This document shows positions 7,966 through 64,000 of a stretch of DNA of 64,000 nucleotides, piece by piece. The stretch is from the IMG/VR virus record IMGVR_UViG_3300032053_000067, positions 1-64,000 of that record; one strand, 5' to 3'. The translations under genes were made by a program, and so were the position numbers. The DNA comes from a virus. The notes beneath the pieces are model-generated. The model made no database searches, had not been told where the DNA came from, and saw only the letters and a list, made by a program, of their open reading frames with translations. How positions within the stretch are numbered: the stretch's first letter is position 1; the number at the start of each line of letters is the position of its first letter.

Positions 7966-8448
7966 ATGGGAAACATAGGATACAACGGCGAATGCGGCGA
8001 TGGCGAGCCGCTTATCGGGATACCGGAAGGGGAACATTATTTCCGGGTACGTAATGTCACAAAAGGGTTTGACGAAAAACATCAATGCGATGCGGCTACC
8101 GTCACGCTTGAAGTCAGGGCGGGCGAAACCACGGCTACGATACAAGACAAGCTCCCGTGCCACACCGCGTTCGAGTGGAAACTTGGCGCTTTCTTTAAAT
8201 CGCTCGGCCTCCGCAAGTCGGGCGAGAAGCTCCGCATGAACTGGGACGCCGCGGTAGGCCAGTGGGGCCGGTGCAAAATCGTCATTAAAAAGGGCCGCGA
8301 ACGGGATTTTCATAACATCGGTTCGTATCTCGACCGCAACGGCAAACAGCCGCCGGCGTGGTGTGTCGAGCCGCTCGGTGCGGCCGCGGCCCCTGCGCCA
8401 CAGCGGCAGGCGCCAGAACCAACCGAAGACGACGGTGCCCCGTTTTGA
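7966..8448 (+). CDS. SSB-like phage single-strand-binding protein (DUF669-like)
   Basis: 160 residues with AAAAGGAGA before the start. The N-terminal ~120 residues look like an OB-type beta barrel (GEHYFRVRNVTKGFD, KCKIVIKKGRERD region). The tail is Ala/Pro/Gln-rich, flexible, and ends in the acidic tip TEDDGAPF, the hallmark of SSB C-termini that recruit partners. Such DUF669-like proteins commonly sit beside Sak4-type ATPases. It would coat ssDNA during replication or recombination. Confidence 0.7.
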   Translation: MGNIGYNGECGDGEPLIGIPEGEHYFRVRNVTKGFDEKHQCDAATVTLEVRAGETTATIQDKLPCHTAFEWKLGAFFKSLGLRKSGEKLRMNWDAAVGQWGRCKIVIKKGRERDFHNIGSYLDRNGKQPPAWCVEPLGAAAAPAPQRQAPEPTEDDGAPF

Positions 8449-8509
8449 CGGGAATGAATCACAACCGGCAGACGCGCGGCGTGTTCGCGTGGGGCGGGTG
8501 GGCGTGGTG

Positions 8510-9622
8510 ATGACGTACTACAACGATAATGATGGCAAGGCGTGCGCGTGGTTGTGCGAGTTACAAGCGGCGGGGTTGATTACGGCCGGCCTGATTGATG
8601 ATAGGAGCATTTGTGATGTGCGAGGAAACGACCTTGCGGGATTCGAGCGGTGCCACCTCTTCGCCGGGATCGGCGGATGGGATTGCGCATTACGACTCGC
8701 CAAGTGGCCGGCAGGTGTTTCCGTTTGGACAGGTTCCCCGCCCTGCCAGCCGTTCAGTTGCGCCGGCAAAGGGGCGGGCGAAAAAGATCCCCGCCACCTG
8801 TGGCCCGAGTTTCGACGCCTCATCGCCGAGTGCCGTCCTCCAAGCGTCTTTGGAGAGCAGGTTGCGTCAAAGGCTGGACGTCAATGGCTCGCTGGAGTAT
8901 TCACTGACATGGAAGCACTGGGATATGCCTGCGCGGGTGCCGATCTGTGCGCTGCGGGCATCGCGGCGCCGCATATCCGGCAACGCCTGTACTGGGTGGC
9001 CGTCGCCGAATCTATGCGAGCGGGGAGCGGAGTTGAAAGAGTCGAAAGACAAGCGCGGATCAGGCGGGGTGGATTTGCAGACGGCGGCCACGCTCGCGGG
9101 GTGGCGATCTCCGGCGGTGCAGAATTCTCAGGGCGGGCCTCTCTCACCGGAGAAAACAAATGCGCGGTCGAGGTTGACGCTTCAGTCCCAGGCGGTCCTT
9201 GCGGGCTACCCGACGCCACAATCGTACAGCTTTCAAGAGAGCCACGCGCCTGGGCAAGTGAAACTGGACTTGTGTGCGAAACTGGCGGGCTTTGCAACCC
9301 CGCGGGCGGAGGAGCGGTCTCAACGGAACAGCCGGGACAATTACGAGGCACTATCGAAACAGGTTTCTGGAGCGATTACGACGTCATCCCGTTCCGCGAC
9401 GGGAAATCGCGGCGTACTCAACCCCGCTCTGCCCCGTTGGTTATTGGGCTACCCCGAGGCGTGGTGCCTTGCGGCGATCCGCGCATCGAGGACGTTAACC
9501 AAAGCGCGGAGGCGCGGGTGATGCGATTGAAAGGTTACGGGAATTCGATTTGCGCGCCACTTGCGGCGGTGTTCATCAAGGCAGTAATGGACTGGCTAGA
9601 AACAGTGGAGGCGACAGCATGA
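8510..9622 (+). CDS. C5-cytosine DNA methyltransferase (Dcm family)
   Basis: 370 residues from the ATG at 8510. Conserved motifs are present in order: I, CHLFAGIGGWDCAL; IV, GSPPCQPFS with catalytic Cys79; a VI-like FGEQV instead of ENV; VIII, APHIRQRLYWVA; and X, GYGNSICAPLAAVFI. The late stretch FWSDYDVIPFRDGKSRR is also typical of phage cytosine methylases. The target-recognition region between VIII and X is low in complexity (Gly/Ala/Arg-rich), because most of it lies opposite a second open gene in another frame (8616-9521). Role: modify phage DNA against host restriction. It overlaps the adenine methylase gene (ATGA). Confidence 0.9.
   Translation: MTYYNDNDGKACAWLCELQAAGLITAGLIDDRSICDVRGNDLAGFERCHLFAGIGGWDCALRLAKWPAGVSVWTGSPPCQPFSCAGKGAGEKDPRHLWPEFRRLIAECRPPSVFGEQVASKAGRQWLAGVFTDMEALGYACAGADLCAAGIAAPHIRQRLYWVAVAESMRAGSGVERVERQARIRRGGFADGGHARGVAISGGAEFSGRASLTGENKCAVEVDASVPGGPCGLPDATIVQLSREPRAWASETGLVCETGGLCNPAGGGAVSTEQPGQLRGTIETGFWSDYDVIPFRDGKSRRTQPRSAPLVIGLPRGVVPCGDPRIEDVNQSAEARVMRLKGYGNSICAPLAAVFIKAVMDWLETVEATA
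8616..9521 (+). CDS. Nested gene inside dcm, +1 frame, 301 aa
   Basis: This frame lies wholly within the cytosine methylase gene but one base out of register. It begins at an ATG (8616) with AGGAG 8 nt upstream. The product reads like a real protein: SLEYSLTWKHWDMP, then RASRRRISGNACTGWPSP, then loosely repeated elements AGWRSP, AGYPTP and AGFATP at intervals of ~30 residues, and an ending VLNPALPRWLLGYPEAW. I recall similar proteins of unknown function, with GWPTP repeats and an LNP..RWLMGYP ending, annotated near phage cytosine methylases, but cannot confirm that here. The methylase frame is the one with poor composition across this stretch. Likely co-expressed with Dcm; function unknown. 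Confidence 0.72.
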   Translation: MCEETTLRDSSGATSSPGSADGIAHYDSPSGRQVFPFGQVPRPASRSVAPAKGRAKKIPATCGPSFDASSPSAVLQASLESRLRQRLDVNGSLEYSLTWKHWDMPARVPICALRASRRRISGNACTGWPSPNLCERGAELKESKDKRGSGGVDLQTAATLAGWRSPAVQNSQGGPLSPEKTNARSRLTLQSQAVLAGYPTPQSYSFQESHAPGQVKLDLCAKLAGFATPRAEERSQRNSRDNYEALSKQVSGAITTSSRSATGNRGVLNPALPRWLLGYPEAWCLAAIRASRTLTKARRRG

Positions 9623-51794: not shown

Positions 51795-54700
51795 ATGGGA
51801 CGATATCGGGATTTGATTGACCAGTTTGCGCCGGGTGGTGCGGCTACCGGATTGCCTGAAGGCGAGCCGGAAGACGTCATGGCCCCCCCCGCCCGCAGCC
51901 GGAGCGCCGCCTTGCTGGAAGTTTTCGACCCTGATAAGGCAACTGAGACGCTGACAGTGGCCATACCAGAACCGTCCGCCATGACGGCACCGGTCCACAA
52001 ACGGGCGGACTGGCGGGAAGGCTTCCACGGGGATCTGATGCGCAAAGGCGTACTGTCCGAAGAACAGGCAAAAAAAGGCGCTGAACGGTACGAGGCGTGG
52101 ACACGGCAACCCGAGGAGATCGGATATGCAGCCAGCCCCGGGGAGGGCGGCTTGGTAACGGCAGCCCGCTGGCTAAAGACGTATCCTGGCAAGTTCCTTG
52201 GAAAAATCCAGTTGGACCGCGCCCGGAACATGACATTTGAGACGGTCCCCCAGTTGGACGTGATGGGCGACCGCGAAGTTGAAGACAACCTGACCCGCAT
52301 GATGGGTGTCGCGCCAGACCAAGAGTGGGAAAAAGAGATTACGTCAAAACTGCCAGAGTCTTGGGACTGGAAGAAAAAGCATATGTTCGCCCAAGCAAAT
52401 TGGATGACAAAAACGGCAGACGAGTACGCACAGTGGCGAGCCGGTCCGGAAGGTCCGAGTACAGCTACAAAAGCGCTTATTGGCGTTGCTCAGAATGCGC
52501 CGTTGATGCTGGAGATCGCCGCAGGCGGATTAGCGAAAAAAGCGGTGACCGGGACGGGTAAGTTGGTCGGGAAAGGTTTAGCAAAACGCGCGACGCGCGG
52601 CCTTATCCACGGCTCGGTATATTCGGCAATCGAAGGCCCGCGCCAGTTTGCGGACGTGCGGGCAAACAAGACAGAACTGGGGCCGGACGGGATAACGCGG
52701 ATGGTGGAGCCGGGCGCGGGTGTCGGTGAGTCGCTACTCAAAGCAGGCATTTATGGCGTGTTGGAACCAGCTGTCGAGATCGCGGGCGGCGAGATGTTTG
52801 TCAAAAACGCCCTAAAACCGCTAGGAAAATATGCAGCGGTCAAAGGCCCCGGCTGGTTGGTAAACAAGGTGGCGCCGAGTCTTGCGCAGAGGGGCAAAGA
52901 GGCATTGGCAGGAATCGGCCTTGCGGTCTCAGATAAAGCGGGCTGGATGGCCCCGGCTGTACGCCAGTTCAACGAGATTACCGGGTTTCAAGGGATGGGG
53001 GTAGAAATCACGGAAGAGGCGTTGCAGGCGTTTTACGACGCGGTAGGCAACATCTCGAACAGTTACGACAAAGCCGGGTTGCAGAACGTCCCCGAGGCGG
53101 CGCAGGCGTTCAAAGACCAGTTTATCGAGATGGCGGGCACCTTGGCGCTGATGCGCGGGGGCGAGTACGGGATCAGCGCACCCGCCTACCTGAAGACGCG
53201 AGCCACTGTGGCGAAAAGCCTCGAGGGGTTCCGCGACATGGGGTACGACGTGCCGGACGCGGGTGTCGTGAAACGGTTGCCAATGGACGACAAGATCGAC
53301 ATGCTCAACAACTTCCGGGACATCCACGGACTCCGATACTTCGGCAAAGAGGGGATTGGCTGGCACGACATACCGGCGGAAGAGATGGCGGAGATGGACC
53401 CGCAGGAACGGGAATTGAAGTTGATGGAGATGAAAGCCGAGTGGTACAAAGGCCGGCTGCAACAGTTGGGGATGCAGCCAGATGAGGTCGAACAAGCGTT
53501 CCAGACCAAGACGGAACCTGAGTTGCAGGCGATGGTGACGGAACGCACGGTGGATGACCAGGTACGCCAGCTGGGTGTCGACCCGACCGGGTTTAAGCCG
53601 CGCGAGAAACGGGAGATGGTTGAGGCGGCATGGCGTCAGCAACTCGATGCCACCTTGGCGCCGTATGTGGACGAAACCGCGTTGCAGACAATGACGGAAG
53701 AGGAGAAGATGAACGCGGTGGCCGGCTCGATGGGCGCAGTTGCCAGCATCGGGCCGAAGCCGCAGGGCGAGTTCGAGGCGCCGTGGGCGGGCGGGGAAGA
53801 CGCGATGGCGCCACCGGCAAGGCCGGGTGGAGTTGTAGGGCAAACTATACCGACAGAACAGCAAACGGTTGTGCCAATCGAGCGGGCCAATGCCCCCGTA
53901 CAGCCTGTGGTTACGCCTACTGCGCCCACCGTTTTTGAACAGGGGACAGTCGCCCCTACAGCCGCACCTGTTGCGGGCGGGTTCAGCGATGAGGTGTCAG
54001 ACACGTTGCGGGCGATCCCCCAAGGCGACCCGATCCATATGTCGGAGTTGGGGAAAGGCGCGAAACCCGCCGTCGAGGAATTGGAACGTCTGGGGTTGGT
54101 GGCCCGTGAAGCCACGGCCAAGGGGCGCCCGAAAGCTTTTGTCCGGCTGACGGAAGCCGGCGTGGCGGCGCAGGCAGAGGAAGTTGCGAGGAAGAAAGCC
54201 GGCCGCGTTGCACCCGTCGCACCGCCTACGCTGCCCCAGGAGACGCCAGCGGTTCCAGCGGGCAAAACCCCGACCCGGCCCGAGATCGTTCAGCCCGCGC
54301 CAGCGGCGGCAGCACCTGCCCCCACAGCGCAGGCCAAGCCAAGAGTAACGCTCGCAAATGGAAACGTCGTAGACGTTCAGGCAGACGACCCCGTTGTCAA
54401 GGCGGGCGTATTTGATTGGTATGCTGACGATTCGCCGCCGCACCTAGGGGGTGGCATTGCGCTTCCAAAAGGACACCCCGTACCTGAATTTAAATCTTAC
54501 GATGATGCACAGTCGGCCATTGACGATTACACTGACATTCTGTCAAACAAGTACGGCGAAGACGCGGCAGTGCAGGCTCCGGTGTCCGTCGGAACGGGCG
54601 GATTTGCCGATCTGCCAGCGACACCTACGCCATTATCGTTGCCTGAAATAAGCAAACTCCGAAGCCTTTATGTTGCCAGAGACGCCATTGACGCCAGAGA

Positions 54701-57700
54701 AACAAAGGCGACGTTCCACAGTGTGTTATCTGATGTTGGCAGTTTTGAACCTCTTTCAGAAAAAGAGGTTAGAAAGGAACTGGCGAAACTCCAAGATGAA
54801 GGTAGGCTGGATCTCGCAATGGGCACAGAACCGAGATCACCAGACAGTCTTGTTGCCAAGATATACGAGTCACTGCACTGGAAAACGGATGATACGTGGA
54901 ACTCAAAAACCGACCCCGATCTAGACCTAACGTTTTACGAGGAGGCGTTGCGAGCCGAACAATACGGAGGATACGAACACGACCCCACACCAGAATTAAA
55001 CCTTGCTCGCAGAATAGCGGCGGCTGCTACAGGGAATGTTCGTAGAAAAAGACTTCCAGGACCGCAACGCAGACTGACTCTTCAACCCCAACCAACGGAG
55101 GTAACACCCAATGCCGTGCCACGGAAAGAAGCGCAAAAAGCCCCGCAAGTAGAACCGTTAGCCCCTTGGCTTAGAGAAGAAATGATCCGCCAAGGGAAAA
55201 ATCCTAACCGGCTTATGAACGACATCGACGTTGAGCAAAGCCGAGATCTGATCGCGCAAGACCCGATAGTGCAGTTCATCCAACAAGCCCATCCAGAACT
55301 GGCAGAGAGGGCGTTGCGTGGCGATTTGAGCGTAGAGGAATATCGTAAGTATCAGCAAGAATCAGCGATACCCCTAACGGCCCCCCGGAAGGAGCCGACC
55401 ACCCCCGCGGCGGAAGTAGAGACGAAAACTCGCAAAAAAGAGCCATGGGAGATGACGTCCAAAGAGTGGTCAGACCAAGTTGATCGCATAGACGCACGTA
55501 TCGAGCAAGCAAAGATCGCAGGCCAAATACCCTACCTGGAAGTTGCACGGAAACAGCCACAAGGACGAGTTGTGTATGAGGCGCATGGTCTCGATGGAAA
55601 GTTGCTGGCTTCTGGTACGGCAAAGAGTTTGGGCGAAAAGCTTTACCGCAGAAAAGATAGGTACTGGAATGTCAGTGGTGGTTTTCTTCAATATGAGCAA
55701 AATGAGCCGTTTAGCGTCGAAGGTTATCGTGCGAAGTTGCGTGAAATAAACAAGAAACAGCACGGGGAATTTGTTGAACACGACATCAGAGAGGGGAAAA
55801 CGCCCCCGCCCGAAGTACTGGCAGAGTACCCCGATCTAAAGCCGCAACCCGCAAAAGCAGAACCGGAAGCGAAACCAACCTCCGCCGCCAAACCCGCGCC
55901 CACCAAGTCCGTCACCGACACCATCTTCGACGTGATGACCAAGACGTTCGGCGGCAAGGCACAGTATCGGGCCGTCGCAACCAAAGACAAGTTGCCCGCC
56001 AAGGTGAAGGAGGCGGCCCGGGCGGAGTTGGAGAAACAAGGACTCAAGTGGGAAGACCAGCGGCTCCATGCGTTTTACCTGAACGGGTCGGTGTGGTTCA
56101 TCAAAGACCAGTTGGAAGCGGGTGCGGAAGCCGCCGGGATGACGCTGGAAGCGTTTGTGACGGCCAAGGCCATGCACGAGTACGGGTTGCACCTCGGCCT
56201 GCGCAAGATGATGGGCGAACTGTTCGGCCCCACGGCGCGCACCGAGATGGACCGGCTCTGCCGAAGCGTGACTGATAGTGTTGGGCGCGACAAGGTGTTG
56301 GCGGCGTTGCCGTCGACGTATGCCGGCTTTGACGACACCGCGTTGGGCCAAGAGTATCTGGCGAAACTGGCGGAGAAACTGGACGCCGGGACGCTGACAG
56401 CCGAGGAAAAGACCGTGTGGGACCGGCTGGTCGAGTTTATCAAAAGCGTGCTGAAGAAAGCGCGGGGCACGTTGACGGATACGGATATCGACCAGATCGT
56501 CCGCATGGCCGTGTCGCGGGCCAAGGCGAAGGGCGCAGTGGTCGAGGAAGAAGCGGTCGCGCAGACGCAGCCGGAAGTCACGCCCGCGCGAACGGCGCTG
56601 ATCGATCGGTTGGTCGCGACGATGGAGGCGCGGCAACCGAAACACAAGATCGTGCCAAAATACGAATTGAAGGGTTCTGACGGAAAGTGGTATGGCGGGG
56701 ATATGCCCGCGAAAGTAGATTACAGCGGTGAACGCCGCATTTCCGGGTATGTGTTTCAAGACAAAGACGGGACAAGGTTTGCTGCAAAGCATTATGCCAC
56801 AGAGGCAGAAGCCCAAGCTGCAGTTGATCGGCGGCAGGAACGCGATGCCGAAGACTTCCGCAAGGCGATGGCGGAAAAGGACGACGAGGGCCTTCAAGAG
56901 TCAGCGGATTACTGGCTTGGGAAAAAGGAAGCGACCGCGAAAACGCCGACCGTAGCGCCCACAAAGCCCCCAAAAGCGGCCACAATGACGGGGAACGCAG
57001 AAGACGATGCGCGGCTGTTGCGTCTTCAGGAGAGGGCCAAGACGGGGCGGAGTATGACGGCAAGCGACGAGAAGTCGCTGAAACTACTCGAGGATAAAGC
57101 CAAAGCTGATCCGGGGAAATGGACTTCGGGCGACGGCGTTGGCTATCGGGTTGACCGCCAGATTAACCGAGGATTCCAAGTCGTCCAGGTAGATACGGCA
57201 ACAAAACTAGCGCTAATCCGGCAAGTGGCGGATACGGGGCTGACGAGCACTGGTGGCGACACGGACAGGATCAAGCCGGAGTGGATTCACGTTGCGGATT
57301 TGGTACGGGACAAGAAATACGATGAGCCACCGGCTTCTCCCGCAGAAGTGACGTCGACGGCTACGAAAACGCCTGGAGGTGCGGTTCGCCTTGCGGAGAT
57401 GGTATATGAGCGACTGAAGGCGGGCGAGTCGATTGGGGACGCCTATTTCTTCAAGATAGCCGATGAGGCGTATGGCGGGACGCGAGCGCAGGGGACATAT
57501 GGCCCGAGCGATGCGTATGATGCAATGGAAGCGGGCTTAAACCGCTATTTGGCAGGGTACGGTATGGACCTGTCGCCCACGGGCGACTTAGAGAAGGTGA
57601 AAGAAGACATTGAGCGGATTCGTGGCGCGGTGCGAGCGGTACCCCGCCAGAAAAACCGGAGCGGGGAACGGAACGCATATCAGCAATTCAGCACACCCCC

Positions 57701-60700
57701 GGATTATTCGTACGCGGTGGCGTGGTTGGCGAACATCGGGCCAGGCGACGTGGTCTTGGAGCCAAGTGCGGGGACGGGGAACATAGCCGTTCATGTTGCG
57801 GCAGCGGGCCCAGAGTCGGTTATTGCCAACGAATTGAGCGAACGGCGGGCAGAACTGCTTCGGGGCATTCCTGGCGTGACGGAGGTTTTGACAGAAGACG
57901 CCGAGCAGTTACACAACCTATTGCCGGAAGCCAGGCGCCCAACTGTAGTTGTGATGAACCCGCCGTTTAGCCGTGCGCCAACCCGCATGGGCGAGAAGAA
58001 AGTAATCGGGACCGACCTCAAGCATATAGGCGTGGCGTTAAAGATTTTACAGGATGGCGGCAGACTCGTGGCCGTGATTGGCGCGCCGTTGACCGTGGAC
58101 GAAACAAAGACATTCCAGACATGGTATAATACTGTTAGCAAAAGATTTAACGTTCGCGCCGTGCAACGGGTAAGCCGGGACGTTTATACGTCACAGGGAA
58201 CAAACTTCCCGACGCGAGTTGTCATAATAGACAAGACGGGTCCGACGCCGGCAGGCGGGACGATTGAGTCGAAGGAACTTGTACTGCTGGCGCAGTTGGT
58301 AGAACGGTTGGAGGGAATCCGCAATGACCGTGTCCGAGTTGAACGACTTCGAACTGAGCAAGTTGTGCCTGGAGAAGTTGAAGGAGGTCGGGGAGAACCC
58401 GTCGCCGCACTGCCTGTACGCGCTCCAATTGCTAGCGTGGCTACTGGAGGAGCGGGCGGAGTTGGTGCAGTTGCCAGCGGCGAAGTTTCTGCCGGAACTC
58501 GAGGGGTTCGTGCAGAGCCACCTGGACGACGCGGGGACGTTTCCGCTGTTGCTGAGCAGCCAAGAGGAGGACCAGAGTCTGGAGGAGAAGGCGGAGGTCG
58601 AGGTGCAAGACCTAAAGGATCTGCCGGCGGAGTCGGTGGCGGAGCGGTTACTGGAGAACCTTCACGAAAACCTGTCGAAATTCACCCCGAGTCTGCGGGA
58701 GTAGCTCGCACAGGTGCCCCTGAACAACTAACCGAAAGCGTGTTTGTTCCCTACAAACCATCGGTTAAGTTTCCCAAGAGCAAACCCCACCCCGGCGAAG
58801 TCCGCGAATCAGCTACGATGTCTGCGGTGCATCCGCCCCCTCTAACCTACTCTCCGTTGCTTCCCGCAGAGGTTGTAGAAAAAGGGCTGTTGTCAGACGT
58901 CCAGTTAGAGCCAGTAGCTCGGGCTGGCGCTGCACACGAGAAAATGTTGCCTGCGCTGGAAAACAAGAGGGCGCAACGTCGTGGTTTTCTGCTTGGGGAT
59001 GGCACCGGCGTTGGGAAGGGCCGGATCGTGGCCGGGGTGATTCTCGATAACTTCATGCGTGGACGGAAGAAGGCCGTCTGGCTCTCGATGTCGCAGAGGT
59101 TGTTTGAAGACGCGCAACGGGACTGGGCCGGGATAGGCCAAAACAAACGCAAACTTTTCAACCAAGGCAAGATCAATCTGGCTTCGGCAATCGCAGCCAA
59201 CGATGGTATCCTGTTTACGACGTATGCGGTCTTACGATCTAAAGCGAAAGCAAAACAGACCGAAAAAGCCCGGACACGGCTGGATCAGATAATCGACTGG
59301 CTTGGCGATGATTTTGACGGGGTTATCGTGTTTGATGAGGCACACGCGATGGCCAACGCCATGCCGTCCAAAGGGGACCGGGGCGTAAAGAATGCTTCTG
59401 GCCGCGCTTTGGCTGGCTTGGCGTTACAGAACCGGTTGCCTAACGCGCGGGTGATGTATGTCTCAGCAACAGCCGCGACGGAAGCGGAGAACTTGGCGTA
59501 CATGGAACGGTTGGGTCTGTGGGGGCCCGGGATGCCATCTCCCAACAAACAGCATTTCTTGAACAAAGTGGGGAGCGGCGGTCTTGCCGCAATGGAGGTA
59601 GTCGCGCGCGATTTGAAAGCACAGGGATTGTCTATGGCGCGGAACCTCTCATATGATGATGTTGATTTCGACCGGATAGAACACCCATTGACCCCGGATC
59701 AGCGGACCACTTACGACGCGCTGGCTCGTGCATGGCAAAAGGTGCTGCAGGACGTTAATGCCGCATTAGGAACAACCGACGCGGACAAGAACGCTAAGGG
59801 CCGCGCCTTGGGCCAGTTTTGGGGCGCCCACCAACGGTTCTTCAACCAGATCATCACGGCAATGCAGGTGCCGTCCGTATTCACTCGGATCGAGGCAGAC
59901 ATCCAAGCGGGACGGTCGGTGGTGGTGCAGTTGACAAATACGCACGAAGCAGCGCAAGAACGAGAGTTGGCGAAGCGGACGGAAGACGACGACTTAGAAG
60001 ATTTTGACCTGACGCCGCGCGATATGTTGTTGCAGTACCTCGACAACTCTTTCCCGACACAGCAGTACGAGGAATACCTGGATGAAAACGGCGTCACGCA
60101 AACGCGGCCGGTACTCGATTCGCACGGGAACGCGCTGGAGAACCAAGAGGCGGTGAAGGCGAAAGAACGCCTCTTGCTCGAACTGGGATCAATCCAGGTG
60201 CCGCAAAGCCCGCTCGATATGCTCATTGACCATTTTGGGCGGCGCGCGGTTTCCGAAGTAACCGGCCGGAAACGGCGGGTGGTAAAGGACGAAGCGGGGA
60301 AGATGACGATCGAGGCCCGCGGCACCGGGGCGAACCACGCTGAAATAGCATCCTTTATGGCGGGCAAGAAGCGGATACTGATCTTCAGCGAGGCGGGCGG
60401 CATAGGCGCGAGCTATCACGCGGACCGGGCGAGTGCGAATCAGCAGCAACGCGCCCATTATGTCCTGCAGGCGGGATGGCGTGCGGACCGCGCAGTACAG
60501 GGCATGGGACGGAGCCACAGAAGCAACCAGGCGGCAGCGCCTATCTTTACGCTCGTAACGACCGATTTGAAGGGCCAGAAACGATTTATCAGCACCATCG
60601 CGCGGCGACTGGAGCAGTTGGGCGCCCTGTCGAAAGGCCAGCGGCAAGCAGGGGCGACCGGTTTGTTTGGGCCAGAAGACAATCTGGAAAGCACAGAAGC

Positions 60701-63700
60701 GAAGGAAGCCCTTCTCACGTTCTATCGGGACTTATATGTGCAACGCATTCCTGAAATACAAATTGCTGACTTCGAGCAGGAAATTGGAAAACGGTTGCGC
60801 GATAAAGACGGACGCTTACTGCAGACCCTGCCGCCGATTCGCCAGTTTCTAAACCGCCTCCTGTCTATGACGGTAGACCGCCAGAACCAAGTCTTTGACG
60901 AATTCGATACCCGGCTGAAAGAGCGAGTTCAGATTGCCTTGGCGGAAGGCACGCTCGACCAGGGGCTTGAAACGTATCGGGCGCACAGCATCAAGAAGGC
61001 CGAGGAGCGAGTCGTCCACACGCAAGAAGAAACCCAGGCGCAGACAAAGTATGTGCGCGTAGCGGTGCAGCAACCAATTAAGCGGATGAGTTTCGCGACG
61101 GCGCAAAAGTTGGTGAAATCGAAAAAGGGCGGTTATTTCCGCAACAACGAATCAGGACGGCTCTATGCAGTGGTGCCCGGCCCCGACAAGACAACGGAAA
61201 CCGGCAAGATTGAAAAACAGTACCGGCTTCACTCGCCCCGCGGAACCATCAGGACGATCCCCAATTACCAATTGCAAGGCCACAATTGGGAGAGGGTCGG
61301 CACCGATTTTGACACTTACGAGTCGGAACCGGCGTGGACGGAAGAGTACAACAAAGCCCCGAAGTTTGACGAGTTCGAGGAACACTTGATAACGGGCGTG
61401 GTCCTACCGATTTGGGATCGCATTACCGGGAACACGCGCATTGTCCGGATGTTGACGGACGACGGTGAGCAACTCCTGGGGCTTCTGCTCCCACCCGAAA
61501 CGTACAAGGAGACGTTGAGGAACCTCCAAGTAGAAGTCGCCGGTCCGCAACTGACGCCAGTAGCGGCACTCGAGGGGATTGTCGAGGGAACGTTTAAGGT
61601 GGTGCTTGCTAACGGTTGGCAGGTAAAACGATCTTTTGTGGACAAGGAAGCGCGGGTAGAAGTGACAGGTGCAGACTGGGCTCAAAAACAGATGCTTGAG
61701 AACTTAGGTGCGTTTGTGGAGCAAATTGATTGGAAGACACGCTTATTCCTGCCTACGGGAGAGAAAGGGCGGGAACTCTTGGAGCGTGTCCTGGAAACGA
61801 GTCCAGTGGCCGATGTGGTGAAGTTTGGTCGAGGCAATGAATTTCAACCTTCCCTCGGTGCCCCCGGCCCGGAGTTCGCGCCGTCGCTGGGCGAGGCGTA
61901 TGACAAGGCGAAAGAGTTTGCGTGGAAAATGGCGGAGAAGGCGGAGAAGAAGCTGACGAAAGAATCCGAGGCAAAGACGGTTGGCGCGGTGCGGTCGGAA
62001 CTGGCGAAACGCGACAAAAACGCCAAGCCCGACATATCCCCGTGGCGGGTAGCGCTGGGGACGCCGTTGCGGAACCTTCGGAAGACTTACGCCGGGAAAA
62101 AAATATGGGATGCGGCGTTCGGGCAGCCACAGGAACGTTATGAGATTCAGGATGCCTTCTTCGATCTGGATTATGAGACGGGGCAGAGTGCCGTCAAAAG
62201 GATGGTGAATTACACGCGGAAACACAAAAGGGAATATGCCGACCAGTGGGTGCCGCGATACTTGCAGCGAGATATGGATGCGCTGGGTTACAAGGCCAGG
62301 CAGGGGAAGACGGGGTGGGAAGTAATCGATCCTATGGGCAAGGTGGTGGAAACCTTTGCGCCGGGTGTTGACGAGGACGCGGCTTGGACGAATGCGTATT
62401 TGCGGACCCGGCAAGACGTGATCGAAGGCCGGAACTTTGTACTAACAGATGATGGCAAGATCCGCCAAGTGACAGTACCAAAGATGTCGGAAGCAGCGGG
62501 CGATGCGCTACTGGACATGCGGTTGATTTTTCATCGGACCTGGGCACACCTGTCAGATGAAGCGAACATAGCGGAGAAGGTGTTGAAAGACGCCGGGGCC
62601 GAGATCCAGACCGTCAACTACGATGGCGAAGAGATCTCGGTGTTCGAGGCCATGCGGCAACTTGGCGATTTGCGCGGGTATTACATGCCGCGGTTGCGGG
62701 GTGTCGGGCGAAACGAATTACGCGCCAGGAAAGAAGGCGAAAACCCGTTTTACAAAAAGTACAACACCAGGACGGGCCGAAAAATCGCTGGCTTCATGAA
62801 GGCAAGGTCCGGGTGGGACACCGAATACAGCCGGTCTTCGGAGTCCAGCGAAGAGGCGTTTGGCGATATCAGCCTGGTCGCCATGAACGATGTCATGAAA
62901 AAGGCCCTTGAAGACACCGCCAAACACCAGAAAGAGGTGTCGCCGAAAAGCTTTGAAGCGCTCGGGCTTGAGACGGATACCATACAGTACACGCGAAAAA
63001 CGGACGGGGTGGTCGAGGATCATTTCGTTATCAAGGCCGACGACGGCAACAAGCGGTACAACGAACTGTGGAAATCGTTTCAGGGCGGACGGTGGAAAGA
63101 CGGGTTTTGGCATTTCATAGCTTCGGAGAAGAACCCCGTCAGCGCCATCAAGCGGACGTTGCAACGCGCCGCAGTCAGCCAGAATATGCAGCAGGTCGGC
63201 GCGGCGGACTTGTTTGGCCGCGCCCTTGCACAACAACTGGCGGTGATGATGCACGCACGAGGCAGCCGGGCGCGTAAGATCGGGCGTAACGAGGCAAAAG
63301 GCAAAGACGTATACGTCGGTTATGACCCGGATCCGGTGAGGGCCATGGTGGCGACCGCCAGTGCAATAGCCGGCGGCACGGCAAAGCGGCACATGGCACA
63401 AAAGATGTTGAACGCCGTGATGGGCGTCGAAATGCCGTGGAAAGACTTCCTGGCGAAGAACCTACCGGCCGACTTTGACAAGTTGTCCCACTCGGAACAG
63501 GTAGCCAAGCGGCATGAGATTTGGGAGCAGTACGAGGCGGGCAACAAAGAACGGCGGCTTGATTCTGGCCTACAAACCGAAGCTTACGATGACGCCGTAT
63601 CGTATATCCGGGACCAGTTGCGGAACGACACGGCCATGGAACGGGTGTTCGGATGGATTCGCGGCTTGGCCTCGCAGTACTTTTTGACGGGCGTGGCGCC

Positions 63701-64000
63701 TGCCGTTATAAACCACACCACGATGGTGACGACAGTCCCCGCGATATTTCACCAGGAAGGCAAGATCCCGTTTGCCCGGACGTTCGCGCTCCTCGGCAAG
63801 ATGGAACCGATCTACATCAAACACCGGATAGCCCAGCGGCGCGGCACCCCCGAATCTCTCGGCCCGGAAATGAAATGGTTGCTCACCGAGATCTCGCGGC
63901 GGCGGTGGGACGACGCCCAGATGAACATCGAAGCGATGGAGGTCATGCTTTCGCAGTTCCGCGGGAAAGCCCGTCGCGTAATGGAAGTCAATATGATGCT
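51795..64000 (+). CDS. Giant polyvalent ejection protein: methylase + helicase (3' partial)
   Basis: The frame is open from the ATG at 51795 to the right edge, at least 4068 residues. Visible parts: helical N-terminus (1-730); winged-helix-like segment ~733-795 (IHMSELGKGAKPAVEELERL); AT-richer segment ~846-1325; a possible zincin MHEYGLHLGL (His1461, Glu1462, His1466); N6-methylase-like domain with VVLEPSAGTGNIAVHV near 1988 and NPPF at 2055-2058; strawberry-notch-type helicase with Walker A GDGTGVGKG (2401-2409), DEAH (2514-2517) and motif VI QGMGRSHR from 2902; and a long helical C-terminal region with VAPAVINHTT near residue 3970. This is the plan of DarB/polyvalent proteins injected with phage DNA to resist restriction. 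The linker 2177-2303 also encodes another gene in a second frame. The ribosome site is weak (AAAGGC). Confidence 0.85.
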   Translation, partial: MGRYRDLIDQFAPGGAATGLPEGEPEDVMAPPARSRSAALLEVFDPDKATETLTVAIPEPSAMTAPVHKRADWREGFHGDLMRKGVLSEEQAKKGAERYEAWTRQPEEIGYAASPGEGGLVTAARWLKTYPGKFLGKIQLDRARNMTFETVPQLDVMGDREVEDNLTRMMGVAPDQEWEKEITSKLPESWDWKKKHMFAQANWMTKTADEYAQWRAGPEGPSTATKALIGVAQNAPLMLEIAAGGLAKKAVTGTGKLVGKGLAKRATRGLIHGSVYSAIEGPRQFADVRANKTELGPDGITRMVEPGAGVGESLLKAGIYGVLEPAVEIAGGEMFVKNALKPLGKYAAVKGPGWLVNKVAPSLAQRGKEALAGIGLAVSDKAGWMAPAVRQFNEITGFQGMGVEITEEALQAFYDAVGNISNSYDKAGLQNVPEAAQAFKDQFIEMAGTLALMRGGEYGISAPAYLKTRATVAKSLEGFRDMGYDVPDAGVVKRLPMDDKIDMLNNFRDIHGLRYFGKEGIGWHDIPAEEMAEMDPQERELKLMEMKAEWYKGRLQQLGMQPDEVEQAFQTKTEPELQAMVTERTVDDQVRQLGVDPTGFKPREKREMVEAAWRQQLDATLAPYVDETALQTMTEEEKMNAVAGSMGAVASIGPKPQGEFEAPWAGGEDAMAPPARPGGVVGQTIPTEQQTVVPIERANAPVQPVVTPTAPTVFEQGTVAPTAAPVAGGFSDEVSDTLRAIPQGDPIHMSELGKGAKPAVEELERLGLVAREATAKGRPKAFVRLTEAGVAAQAEEVARKKAGRVAPVAPPTLPQETPAVPAGKTPTRPEIVQPAPAAAAPAPTAQAKPRVTLANGNVVDVQADDPVVKAGVFDWYADDSPPHLGGGIALPKGHPVPEFKSYDDAQSAIDDYTDILSNKYGEDAAVQAPVSVGTGGFADLPATPTPLSLPEISKLRSLYVARDAIDARETKATFHSVLSDVGSFEPLSEKEVRKELAKLQDEGRLDLAMGTEPRSPDSLVAKIYESLHWKTDDTWNSKTDPDLDLTFYEEALRAEQYGGYEHDPTPELNLARRIAAAATGNVRRKRLPGPQRRLTLQPQPTEVTPNAVPRKEAQKAPQVEPLAPWLREEMIRQGKNPNRLMNDIDVEQSRDLIAQDPIVQFIQQAHPELAERALRGDLSVEEYRKYQQESAIPLTAPRKEPTTPAAEVETKTRKKEPWEMTSKEWSDQVDRIDARIEQAKIAGQIPYLEVARKQPQGRVVYEAHGLDGKLLASGTAKSLGEKLYRRKDRYWNVSGGFLQYEQNEPFSVEGYRAKLREINKKQHGEFVEHDIREGKTPPPEVLAEYPDLKPQPAKAEPEAKPTSAAKPAPTKSVTDTIFDVMTKTFGGKAQYRAVATKDKLPAKVKEAARAELEKQGLKWEDQRLHAFYLNGSVWFIKDQLEAGAEAAGMTLEAFVTAKAMHEYGLHLGLRKMMGELFGPTARTEMDRLCRSVTDSVGRDKVLAALPSTYAGFDDTALGQEYLAKLAEKLDAGTLTAEEKTVWDRLVEFIKSVLKKARGTLTDTDIDQIVRMAVSRAKAKGAVVEEEAVAQTQPEVTPARTALIDRLVATMEARQPKHKIVPKYELKGSDGKWYGGDMPAKVDYSGERRISGYVFQDKDGTRFAAKHYATEAEAQAAVDRRQERDAEDFRKAMAEKDDEGLQESADYWLGKKEATAKTPTVAPTKPPKAATMTGNAEDDARLLRLQERAKTGRSMTASDEKSLKLLEDKAKADPGKWTSGDGVGYRVDRQINRGFQVVQVDTATKLALIRQVADTGLTSTGGDTDRIKPEWIHVADLVRDKKYDEPPASPAEVTSTATKTPGGAVRLAEMVYERLKAGESIGDAYFFKIADEAYGGTRAQGTYGPSDAYDAMEAGLNRYLAGYGMDLSPTGDLEKVKEDIERIRGAVRAVPRQKNRSGERNAYQQFSTPPDYSYAVAWLANIGPGDVVLEPSAGTGNIAVHVAAAGPESVIANELSERRAELLRGIPGVTEVLTEDAEQLHNLLPEARRPTVVVMNPPFSRAPTRMGEKKVIGTDLKHIGVALKILQDGGRLVAVIGAPLTVDETKTFQTWYNTVSKRFNVRAVQRVSRDVYTSQGTNFPTRVVIIDKTGPTPAGGTIESKELVLLAQLVERLEGIRNDRVRVERLRTEQVVPGEVEGGRGEPVAALPVRAPIASVATGGAGGVGAVASGEVSAGTRGVRAEPPGRRGDVSAVAEQPRGGPESGGEGGGRGARPKGSAGGVGGGAVTGEPSRKPVEIHPESAGVARTGAPEQLTESVFVPYKPSVKFPKSKPHPGEVRESATMSAVHPPPLTYSPLLPAEVVEKGLLSDVQLEPVARAGAAHEKMLPALENKRAQRRGFLLGDGTGVGKGRIVAGVILDNFMRGRKKAVWLSMSQRLFEDAQRDWAGIGQNKRKLFNQGKINLASAIAANDGILFTTYAVLRSKAKAKQTEKARTRLDQIIDWLGDDFDGVIVFDEAHAMANAMPSKGDRGVKNASGRALAGLALQNRLPNARVMYVSATAATEAENLAYMERLGLWGPGMPSPNKQHFLNKVGSGGLAAMEVVARDLKAQGLSMARNLSYDDVDFDRIEHPLTPDQRTTYDALARAWQKVLQDVNAALGTTDADKNAKGRALGQFWGAHQRFFNQIITAMQVPSVFTRIEADIQAGRSVVVQLTNTHEAAQERELAKRTEDDDLEDFDLTPRDMLLQYLDNSFPTQQYEEYLDENGVTQTRPVLDSHGNALENQEAVKAKERLLLELGSIQVPQSPLDMLIDHFGRRAVSEVTGRKRRVVKDEAGKMTIEARGTGANHAEIASFMAGKKRILIFSEAGGIGASYHADRASANQQQRAHYVLQAGWRADRAVQGMGRSHRSNQAAAPIFTLVTTDLKGQKRFISTIARRLEQLGALSKGQRQAGATGLFGPEDNLESTEAKEALLTFYRDLYVQRIPEIQIADFEQEIGKRLRDKDGRLLQTLPPIRQFLNRLLSMTVDRQNQVFDEFDTRLKERVQIALAEGTLDQGLETYRAHSIKKAEERVVHTQEETQAQTKYVRVAVQQPIKRMSFATAQKLVKSKKGGYFRNNESGRLYAVVPGPDKTTETGKIEKQYRLHSPRGTIRTIPNYQLQGHNWERVGTDFDTYESEPAWTEEYNKAPKFDEFEEHLITGVVLPIWDRITGNTRIVRMLTDDGEQLLGLLLPPETYKETLRNLQVEVAGPQLTPVAALEGIVEGTFKVVLANGWQVKRSFVDKEARVEVTGADWAQKQMLENLGAFVEQIDWKTRLFLPTGEKGRELLERVLETSPVADVVKFGRGNEFQPSLGAPGPEFAPSLGEAYDKAKEFAWKMAEKAEKKLTKESEAKTVGAVRSELAKRDKNAKPDISPWRVALGTPLRNLRKTYAGKKIWDAAFGQPQERYEIQDAFFDLDYETGQSAVKRMVNYTRKHKREYADQWVPRYLQRDMDALGYKARQGKTGWEVIDPMGKVVETFAPGVDEDAAWTNAYLRTRQDVIEGRNFVLTDDGKIRQVTVPKMSEAAGDALLDMRLIFHRTWAHLSDEANIAEKVLKDAGAEIQTVNYDGEEISVFEAMRQLGDLRGYYMPRLRGVGRNELRARKEGENPFYKKYNTRTGRKIAGFMKARSGWDTEYSRSSESSEEAFGDISLVAMNDVMKKALEDTAKHQKEVSPKSFEALGLETDTIQYTRKTDGVVEDHFVIKADDGNKRYNELWKSFQGGRWKDGFWHFIASEKNPVSAIKRTLQRAAVSQNMQQVGAADLFGRALAQQLAVMMHARGSRARKIGRNEAKGKDVYVGYDPDPVRAMVATASAIAGGTAKRHMAQKMLNAVMGVEMPWKDFLAKNLPADFDKLSHSEQVAKRHEIWEQYEAGNKERRLDSGLQTEAYDDAVSYIRDQLRNDTAMERVFGWIRGLASQYFLTGVAPAVINHTTMVTTVPAIFHQEGKIPFARTFALLGKMEPIYIKHRIAQRRGTPESLGPEMKWLLTEISRRRWDDAQMNIEAMEVMLSQFRGKARRVMEVNMM
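58324..58704 (+). CDS. Nested gene inside the giant gene, +1 frame, 126 aa
   Basis: ATG at 58324 with GGAGGG 8 nt upstream. The product is acidic and helical, TVSELNDFELSKLCLEKLKE, LYALQLLAWLLEERAELVQL and DLPAESVAERLLENLHENLS, with an ordinary hydrophobic pattern. Codon third positions in this frame are almost all G or C, as in real genes here. The giant gene's own frame across the same DNA gives a Gly/Arg/Pro-rich, unstructured string (GGAGGVGAVASGEVSAGTRG), and both flanking domains are in that frame. So the linker of the giant protein appears to be overprinted by a true second gene. The role is unknown; an assembly partner or chaperone of the giant protein is one idea. Confidence 0.75.
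   Translation: MTVSELNDFELSKLCLEKLKEVGENPSPHCLYALQLLAWLLEERAELVQLPAAKFLPELEGFVQSHLDDAGTFPLLLSSQEEDQSLEEKAEVEVQDLKDLPAESVAERLLENLHENLSKFTPSLRE

Follow-up and report, generated by a model that had tools for sequence, protein, structure and literature searches.

The methylase-helicase dyad is typical of polyvalent proteins, the archetype of which is DarB of phage P1 (PMC5512222). DarB-like giants are found in the virions of P1 (PMC9024508) and of Burkholderia phage JC1 (PMC9144972). In the P1 Dar system, DarB is accompanied by the helpers Ulx, DdrB, DarA, and Hdf, and Ulx, a 17-kDa protein encoded next to darB, is listed as an aid to DarB localisation (PMC9024508, PMC12810830). Nested out-of-frame phage genes are likewise already known as a kind. 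In the Rz/Rz1 spanin pair a small gene lies wholly inside another, in a different frame and with its own start, and Rz1 embedded in Rz has been noted for the DarB-carrying phage JC1 itself (PMC9144972). A term search of Iyer et al. 2017 (PMC5512222) revealed no mention of out-of-frame genes in the linkers of polyvalent methylase-helicase proteins.

We analysed a 64,000-nucleotide stretch of a 65,084-base virus record (the window). A giant frame that begins at position 51795 stays open to the end of the record and combines an adenine methylase and an SF2 helicase in one polypeptide (Pfam AAA_34 and Helicase_C_4; PHROG methyltransferases), which makes the protein DarB-like. It belongs to the polyvalent methylase-helicase proteins described by Iyer et al. 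2017 (PMC5512222), including their rarer Strawberry-notch-type ATPase form. The LPD36 domain that DarB-like proteins have N-terminal to the methylase did not appear among the Pfam matches of the giant. The giant gene lies at the end of a late virion block, in which the terminase, major head protein, and an internal virion protein are encoded; by family and position, the giant is probably a virion protein. The locus resembles the P1 Dar system in having a methylase-helicase giant that is a probable virion protein, whereas the P1 helpers are separate genes and P1 darB contains a nested gene of neither family described below. The features of the locus are summarized in Table 1.

Table 1. Positions of the nested gene, its start signals, the giant gene and its domains in the window, and loci of the second nested family.
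Feature	Position or loci	Strand	Details
Nested gene (family 1)	58324..58704	+	ATG start; 126 aa, ~14.3 kDa, pI 4.4; +1 frame of the giant gene
Shine-Dalgarno GGAGGG	58310..58315	+	8 nt before the nested ATG; inside giant-frame codons L-E-G
In-frame +1 stop	58300..58302	+	7 codons 5' of the nested start; open stretch from 58303
Giant DarB-like polyvalent gene	51795..64000	+	Still open at record end; at least 4430 aa
Adenine-methylase-like domain of the giant, NPPF motif	57648..58238	+	phrog_9133, E=1.3e-21; phrog_6263 DNA methyltransferase, E=5.4e-11
Interdomain linker of the giant	58239..58757	+	Gly/Arg/Pro-rich over the nested gene
Helicase N-terminal domain AAA_34 (PF13872) of the giant	58785..59720	+	Pfam E=2.3e-112
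Strawberry-notch-type Helicase_C_4 (PF13871) of the giant	60210..60974	+	Pfam E=1.3e-87
Family-2 loci	L040, L041, L039, L059, L060, L061, L142-L180		Nested in +1 frame, directly before the helicase
Free-standing family-2 copy	L186:8563-8937		Bacterial contig; E=8e-32

The small ORF in the methylase-helicase linker is, with good confidence, a true gene nested out of frame in the giant gene and probably translated as an independent protein from an internal start. Translation would initiate within the giant mRNA, at a Shine-Dalgarno/ATG whose giant-frame reading is E-G-[IV]-R-N, and would yield an independent, acidic, all-alpha protein of ~14 kDa. The DNA would have two jobs, with the +1 frame selected for protein sequence and the giant frame selected mainly for the absence of stops. 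Over the nested gene, the giant frame would then contribute a disordered spacer of ~90–100 extra residues between methylase and helicase. The GC content of the nested +1 frame is 0.67, 0.30, and 0.86 at the first, second, and third codon positions, respectively; the corresponding values for the giant frame are 0.85, 0.67, and 0.30 over the nested stretch and 0.64, 0.44, and 0.65 over the entire giant. Order-promoting residues account for 0.33 of the +1 product versus 0.11 of the giant linker. These values agree with an earlier note made on the letters of the window, which had described the ORF in the linker, the GGAGGG 8 nt before its ATG, the strong G/C bias at its third codon positions, the helical character of its product (reproduced by an AlphaFold2 model), and a giant frame that remains open across it. 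The note had also confined the low complexity of the giant frame to this stretch; the frame is Gly/Arg/Pro-rich here, but the giant contains other low-complexity stretches, which are Pro/Ala-rich.

Direct searches with the 126-residue product, which the earlier note had proposed, gave no match in PHROGs, in phage genomes (tblastn), or in IMG/VR, and the relatives of the nested gene, referred to as family 1, were reached only via the helicase. The first relative (L001), with 40% identity in the helicase, has a 125-codon ORF in the corresponding position; this ORF also begins with ATG, uses the +1 frame, and follows GAGGAGG. BLAST gave no significant similarity between the window and L001 proteins, and their relation emerges only with many sequences. 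Wider searches raised the number of viral loci to 17 and then to 80, from which duplicates were removed. In approximately 70 distinct IMG/VR giants, the linker contains a +1 ORF, mostly of 107–145 codons, and its third frame is usually devoid of an ORF. The nested start usually lies inside the giant-frame motif E-G-[IV]-R-[ND], with a Shine-Dalgarno site in nearly all cases, and the products have in common the core pattern N-P-[LI]-N-x-x-A-K-x-x-L ... P-D-P-x-x-L-Y-x-L-Q-L-x-x-W-x-L-E. The giant frame is open around 84 of the 85 family-1 profile matches, and the remaining one (L107) begins near a contig edge. The profile matches, together with the substitution ratios given below, indicate that the +1 frame is the conserved frame of this linker.

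The earlier note had named stop codons throughout the +1 frame of related intact giants, and the lack of a stand-alone homologue, as findings that would speak against a gene. The +1 frame remains open in giants whose linker is of full length. No stand-alone copy of family 1 was found, whereas the second family described below has one; given the conservation of family 1 in sequence, a stand-alone homologue appears unnecessary. Among 398 sampled genomes of one phylum there was a single family-1 match, which sits in a long open giant frame, and class-wide samples (48 genomes each) yielded nothing further for either family. The family-1 profile did not match in the giants L052/L054, L114, L122, L130, and L134, although their linkers have a +1 ORF. 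The ORFs of L052, L114, L122, L130, and L134 may be fast-diverged members, unrelated ORFs, or members of further families.

The earlier note had regarded the presence of two nested genes in one phage as a pattern in its own right, and nesting reaches beyond this phage. A second family (family 2) occupies the matching place in other DarB-like giants, in which a +1 ORF of 120–138 codons lies directly before the helicase. Its products typically begin with M-[YHF]-Q-[VA]-P-x-x-x-W-N. Family 2 is found in Klebsiella phage ZX1, Serratia phage Parlo, Pseudomonas phage Skulduggery, Ruegeria phage 45A6, and two Vibrio phages, plus 39 IMG/VR loci, and is nested in the giant frame in 45 of 45 cases. The nested gene is annotated in none of the records of the six cultured phages. 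The 8 phage records with a family-2-type helicase are the same 8 that contain the family-2 nested gene. Profile comparison revealed no relation between family 1 and family 2. The free-standing family-2 copy on a bacterial contig (L186) is preceded by a trypsin-like protease gene and lies close to the end of the contig, without a helicase or giant, and its -1 frame is still open; L185/L186 is the sole family-2 match in the 398 sampled genomes. This copy suggests either that the small protein can exist without a giant or that a giant has left a remnant there.

The AlphaFold2 model of the window protein (50-sequence alignment) is all-alpha with seven helices, a mean pLDDT of 94.6, and a pTM of 0.88. 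The family-2 model is also all-alpha (pLDDT 80.5). Fold libraries gave a usable match for neither model. In regards to the window model, Foldseek against the PDB and a viral model library gave no match at E≤0.001, and the best VIA-align result was Z 2.1 with an rmsd of 4.5 over 62 residues; a fold without a match here need not be a new one. The nested proteins scanned matched no Pfam, PHROG, or PADLOC family (four members in the case of PADLOC). A weak PDB profile match to Negative elongation factor C/D (E=0.012) was treated as due to chance.

Regarding function, we tentatively favour, at a little under even chances, a late-made partner of the giant, which could be a helper in folding, head packaging, or co-ejection, or a small subunit of the methylase-helicase. 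This role is suggested because the small protein would share its mRNA with the giant, the giant lies in the late virion block, and the family goes with the methylase-helicase unit. The precedent of P1, whose DarB relies on Ulx and other helpers to take up its position in the head (PMC9024508), points in the same direction. No sequence relation was detected between Ulx and either nested family (hhalign probability ~0.1%, with a single Ulx sequence). A less likely role is in counter-defence, with a free product, such as a DNA mimic active against restriction or another host system, that is linked to the giant only by the shared mRNA. Such a role would agree with the acidity of most members (median pI 5.0; pI 4.4 and a net charge of -17 for the window protein), with their fast sequence divergence, with a host gene of the DarB antirestriction type (PMC5512222), and with the one family-2 copy that is free of any giant. 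However, a gene inside a giant that ends the late virion block would give a late product unless the product is carried in the virion, and matches to known families are lacking, including PADLOC families for the four members scanned.

The Shine-Dalgarno duplex energy at the nested start of the window is -9.8 kcal/mol; of the 190 ATGs across the giant region, approximately 1% attain this value. Across the giants, the first ATG of each nested ORF, taken regardless of Shine-Dalgarno sites, has a median energy of -8.2 versus -2.4 for the other +1-frame ATGs (p=2.7e-26). The ORF lies wholly inside another open frame and has a start codon and a predicted ribosome-binding site of its own, which are the features of a nested gene. 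It is very unlikely that the small protein is made as a frameshift fusion with the methylase half. The position of the ORF in the +1 frame, 3' of a complete methylase domain, would allow such a fusion, but the +1 stop 7 codons before the window ATG leaves a frameshifting ribosome hardly any space in which to enter from the giant frame. The open stretch upstream of the nested start is also short in general (medians of 11 and 7 codons in families 1 and 2, respectively), and strong Shine-Dalgarno sites are located at the nested ATGs. Internal initiation is the most likely mechanism on the basis of these start regions.

The length of the nested ORF is not significant by itself, as a +1 ATG ORF of at least this length arose when the giant was shuffled synonymously, in 35 of 300 cases (12%); the case for a gene consequently rests on the comparison across genomes. 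Significance against chance comes most of all from the comparative evidence, and also from the GC inversion and the start site. The shuffles would suit a by-product, as would the fact that Gly-rich codons alone place G at +1-frame third positions; in that case, the +1 frame would be open only because the GC-rich Gly/Arg/Pro linker offers few +1 stops, and it would not be translated. We regard this as highly improbable. The AT-richer relatives L043, L044, and L105 also carry the nested ORF. A profile of 49 members prepared without the window matched the window ORF with 50.7 bits (E=2.7e-13) among 17,619 six-frame ORFs, and window linkers resampled synonymously with the giant protein kept reached no more than 6.9 bits against the family-1 profile. 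The confident fold predicted from the +1 alignment is a further argument against a by-product, as is selection.

The ratio of nonsynonymous to synonymous changes (N/S) for family 1 was 0.31 in the +1 frame versus 2.3 in the giant frame, as measured on the only two pairs that were close enough (85 differences). The corresponding values for family 2 were 0.36 and 1.55 (11 pairs, 428 differences). These results indicate that the +1 frame is under purifying selection and that the giant residues show no sign of constraint beyond that imposed by the +1 frame. Synonymous resampling of the +1 codons in 67 genomes gave an expectation of approximately 361 giant-frame stops, and resampling of the giant codons gave 104 +1-frame stops; none was seen in either frame, although the loci had been kept for an ORF of at least 80 codons, which makes the joint probabilities too favourable and inflates the 104-stop comparison. 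T at the third position, which giant-frame stops need, has a frequency of 0.06 in the nested genes versus 0.19 in the rest of the giants. The giant frame is thus kept free of stops though its residues are unconstrained. Compensated frameshifts or sequencing errors that shifted an ordinary in-frame linker domain out of frame would account for a +1 product that is more protein-like here than the giant frame, but their probability is negligible, as the same +1 arrangement with its own start, Shine-Dalgarno site, and stop recurs in ~70 independent contigs, the family-2 arrangement recurs in six cultured phages, and no homologue was seen with the nested domain in frame with the giant.

Taken with the start site and the predicted fold, the conservation and purifying selection support the nested gene proposed by the earlier note between the methylase and helicase domains, and, on the sequence evidence, this gene is very probably real and has been overlooked by ordinary genome annotation. 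It differs from Rz1, a lipoprotein of the lysis cassette, in that its product is predicted to be helical and is encoded in a giant virion-type gene; neither a signal nor a lipobox was found on reading the sequence of the window protein, which sets it apart from Rz1-type spanins. A further difference from Rz/Rz1 is that the host frame in the giant gene is the unconstrained one.

Several giants and the short homologues lack the nested gene. Giants with the nested ORF have a median of 274 residues from the NPPF motif to the helicase match; the near-identical giants L123 and L140 have no such ORF and 186 residues, a linker that is ~90 residues shorter. In L116 and L118, the region immediately before the helicase contains neither a methylase motif nor a nested ORF of the family-1 kind. 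Short methylase/Strawberry-notch helicase proteins (~1400 aa) on the bacterial contigs L004-L038 have the same two domains in the same order, with 41–47% identity in the helicase. They differ in having mostly ~183–208 residues from NPP[FYW] to the helicase match, which is a linker ~80–90 residues shorter in most of them, and in giving no match to the nested-family profile. Five cellular genomes with a short homologue also gave no match to the nested gene. The extra linker is thus present or absent together with the nested gene. This pattern agrees better with a small gene that entered the linker, or with a linker that grew around it, than with the overprinting of an old and needed linker. The ORF does lie on the linker, as the earlier note had stated, but the overprinting may have run the other way: the +1 frame is the constrained and folded one, and the giant linker may be a tolerated spacer over it. 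At one further giant-type locus (L137), no methylase motif was found within 450 residues, and the frame before the helicase match does not resemble protein, which suggests a frameshift or a poor start of the match.

One tentative scenario, at somewhat less than even chances, is that the giants repeatedly acquired unrelated small linker genes before the helicase, that the small frame is the original one over which the giant frame was stretched as a spacer, and that the products are dedicated partners made in proportion by internal initiation. To our knowledge, few long out-of-frame genes have been documented in dsDNA phages with conservation over deep divergence. We found no description of such nested families in the open-licence literature. 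As far as our searches tell, what is new is the presence of two conserved families at the same interdomain junction of giants, with a constrained small frame and a giant frame that is a stop-free spacer. The two families are not detectably related; each occurs in tens of genomes, they share both the position and the type of giant, and the phage records examined annotate neither. The reversed constraint, with the small frame conserved and the giant frame as spacer, offers a clean test of how interdomain linkers host genes, and the nested protein would be a previously unrecognized component for the DarB-type DNA-protection machinery.

The earlier note had further counted two nested genes in this phage, each within a DNA-modification gene. 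The second is probably a 308-codon +1 open frame at 8595-9521, inside the DNA methylase gene at 8363-9622 (phrog_363). It is probably real, but it is already catalogued, since its product matches phrog_1008 'DNA methyltransferase' (E=1.2e-23). This match and the flat GC content by codon position in the methylase gene indicate that both frames probably code.
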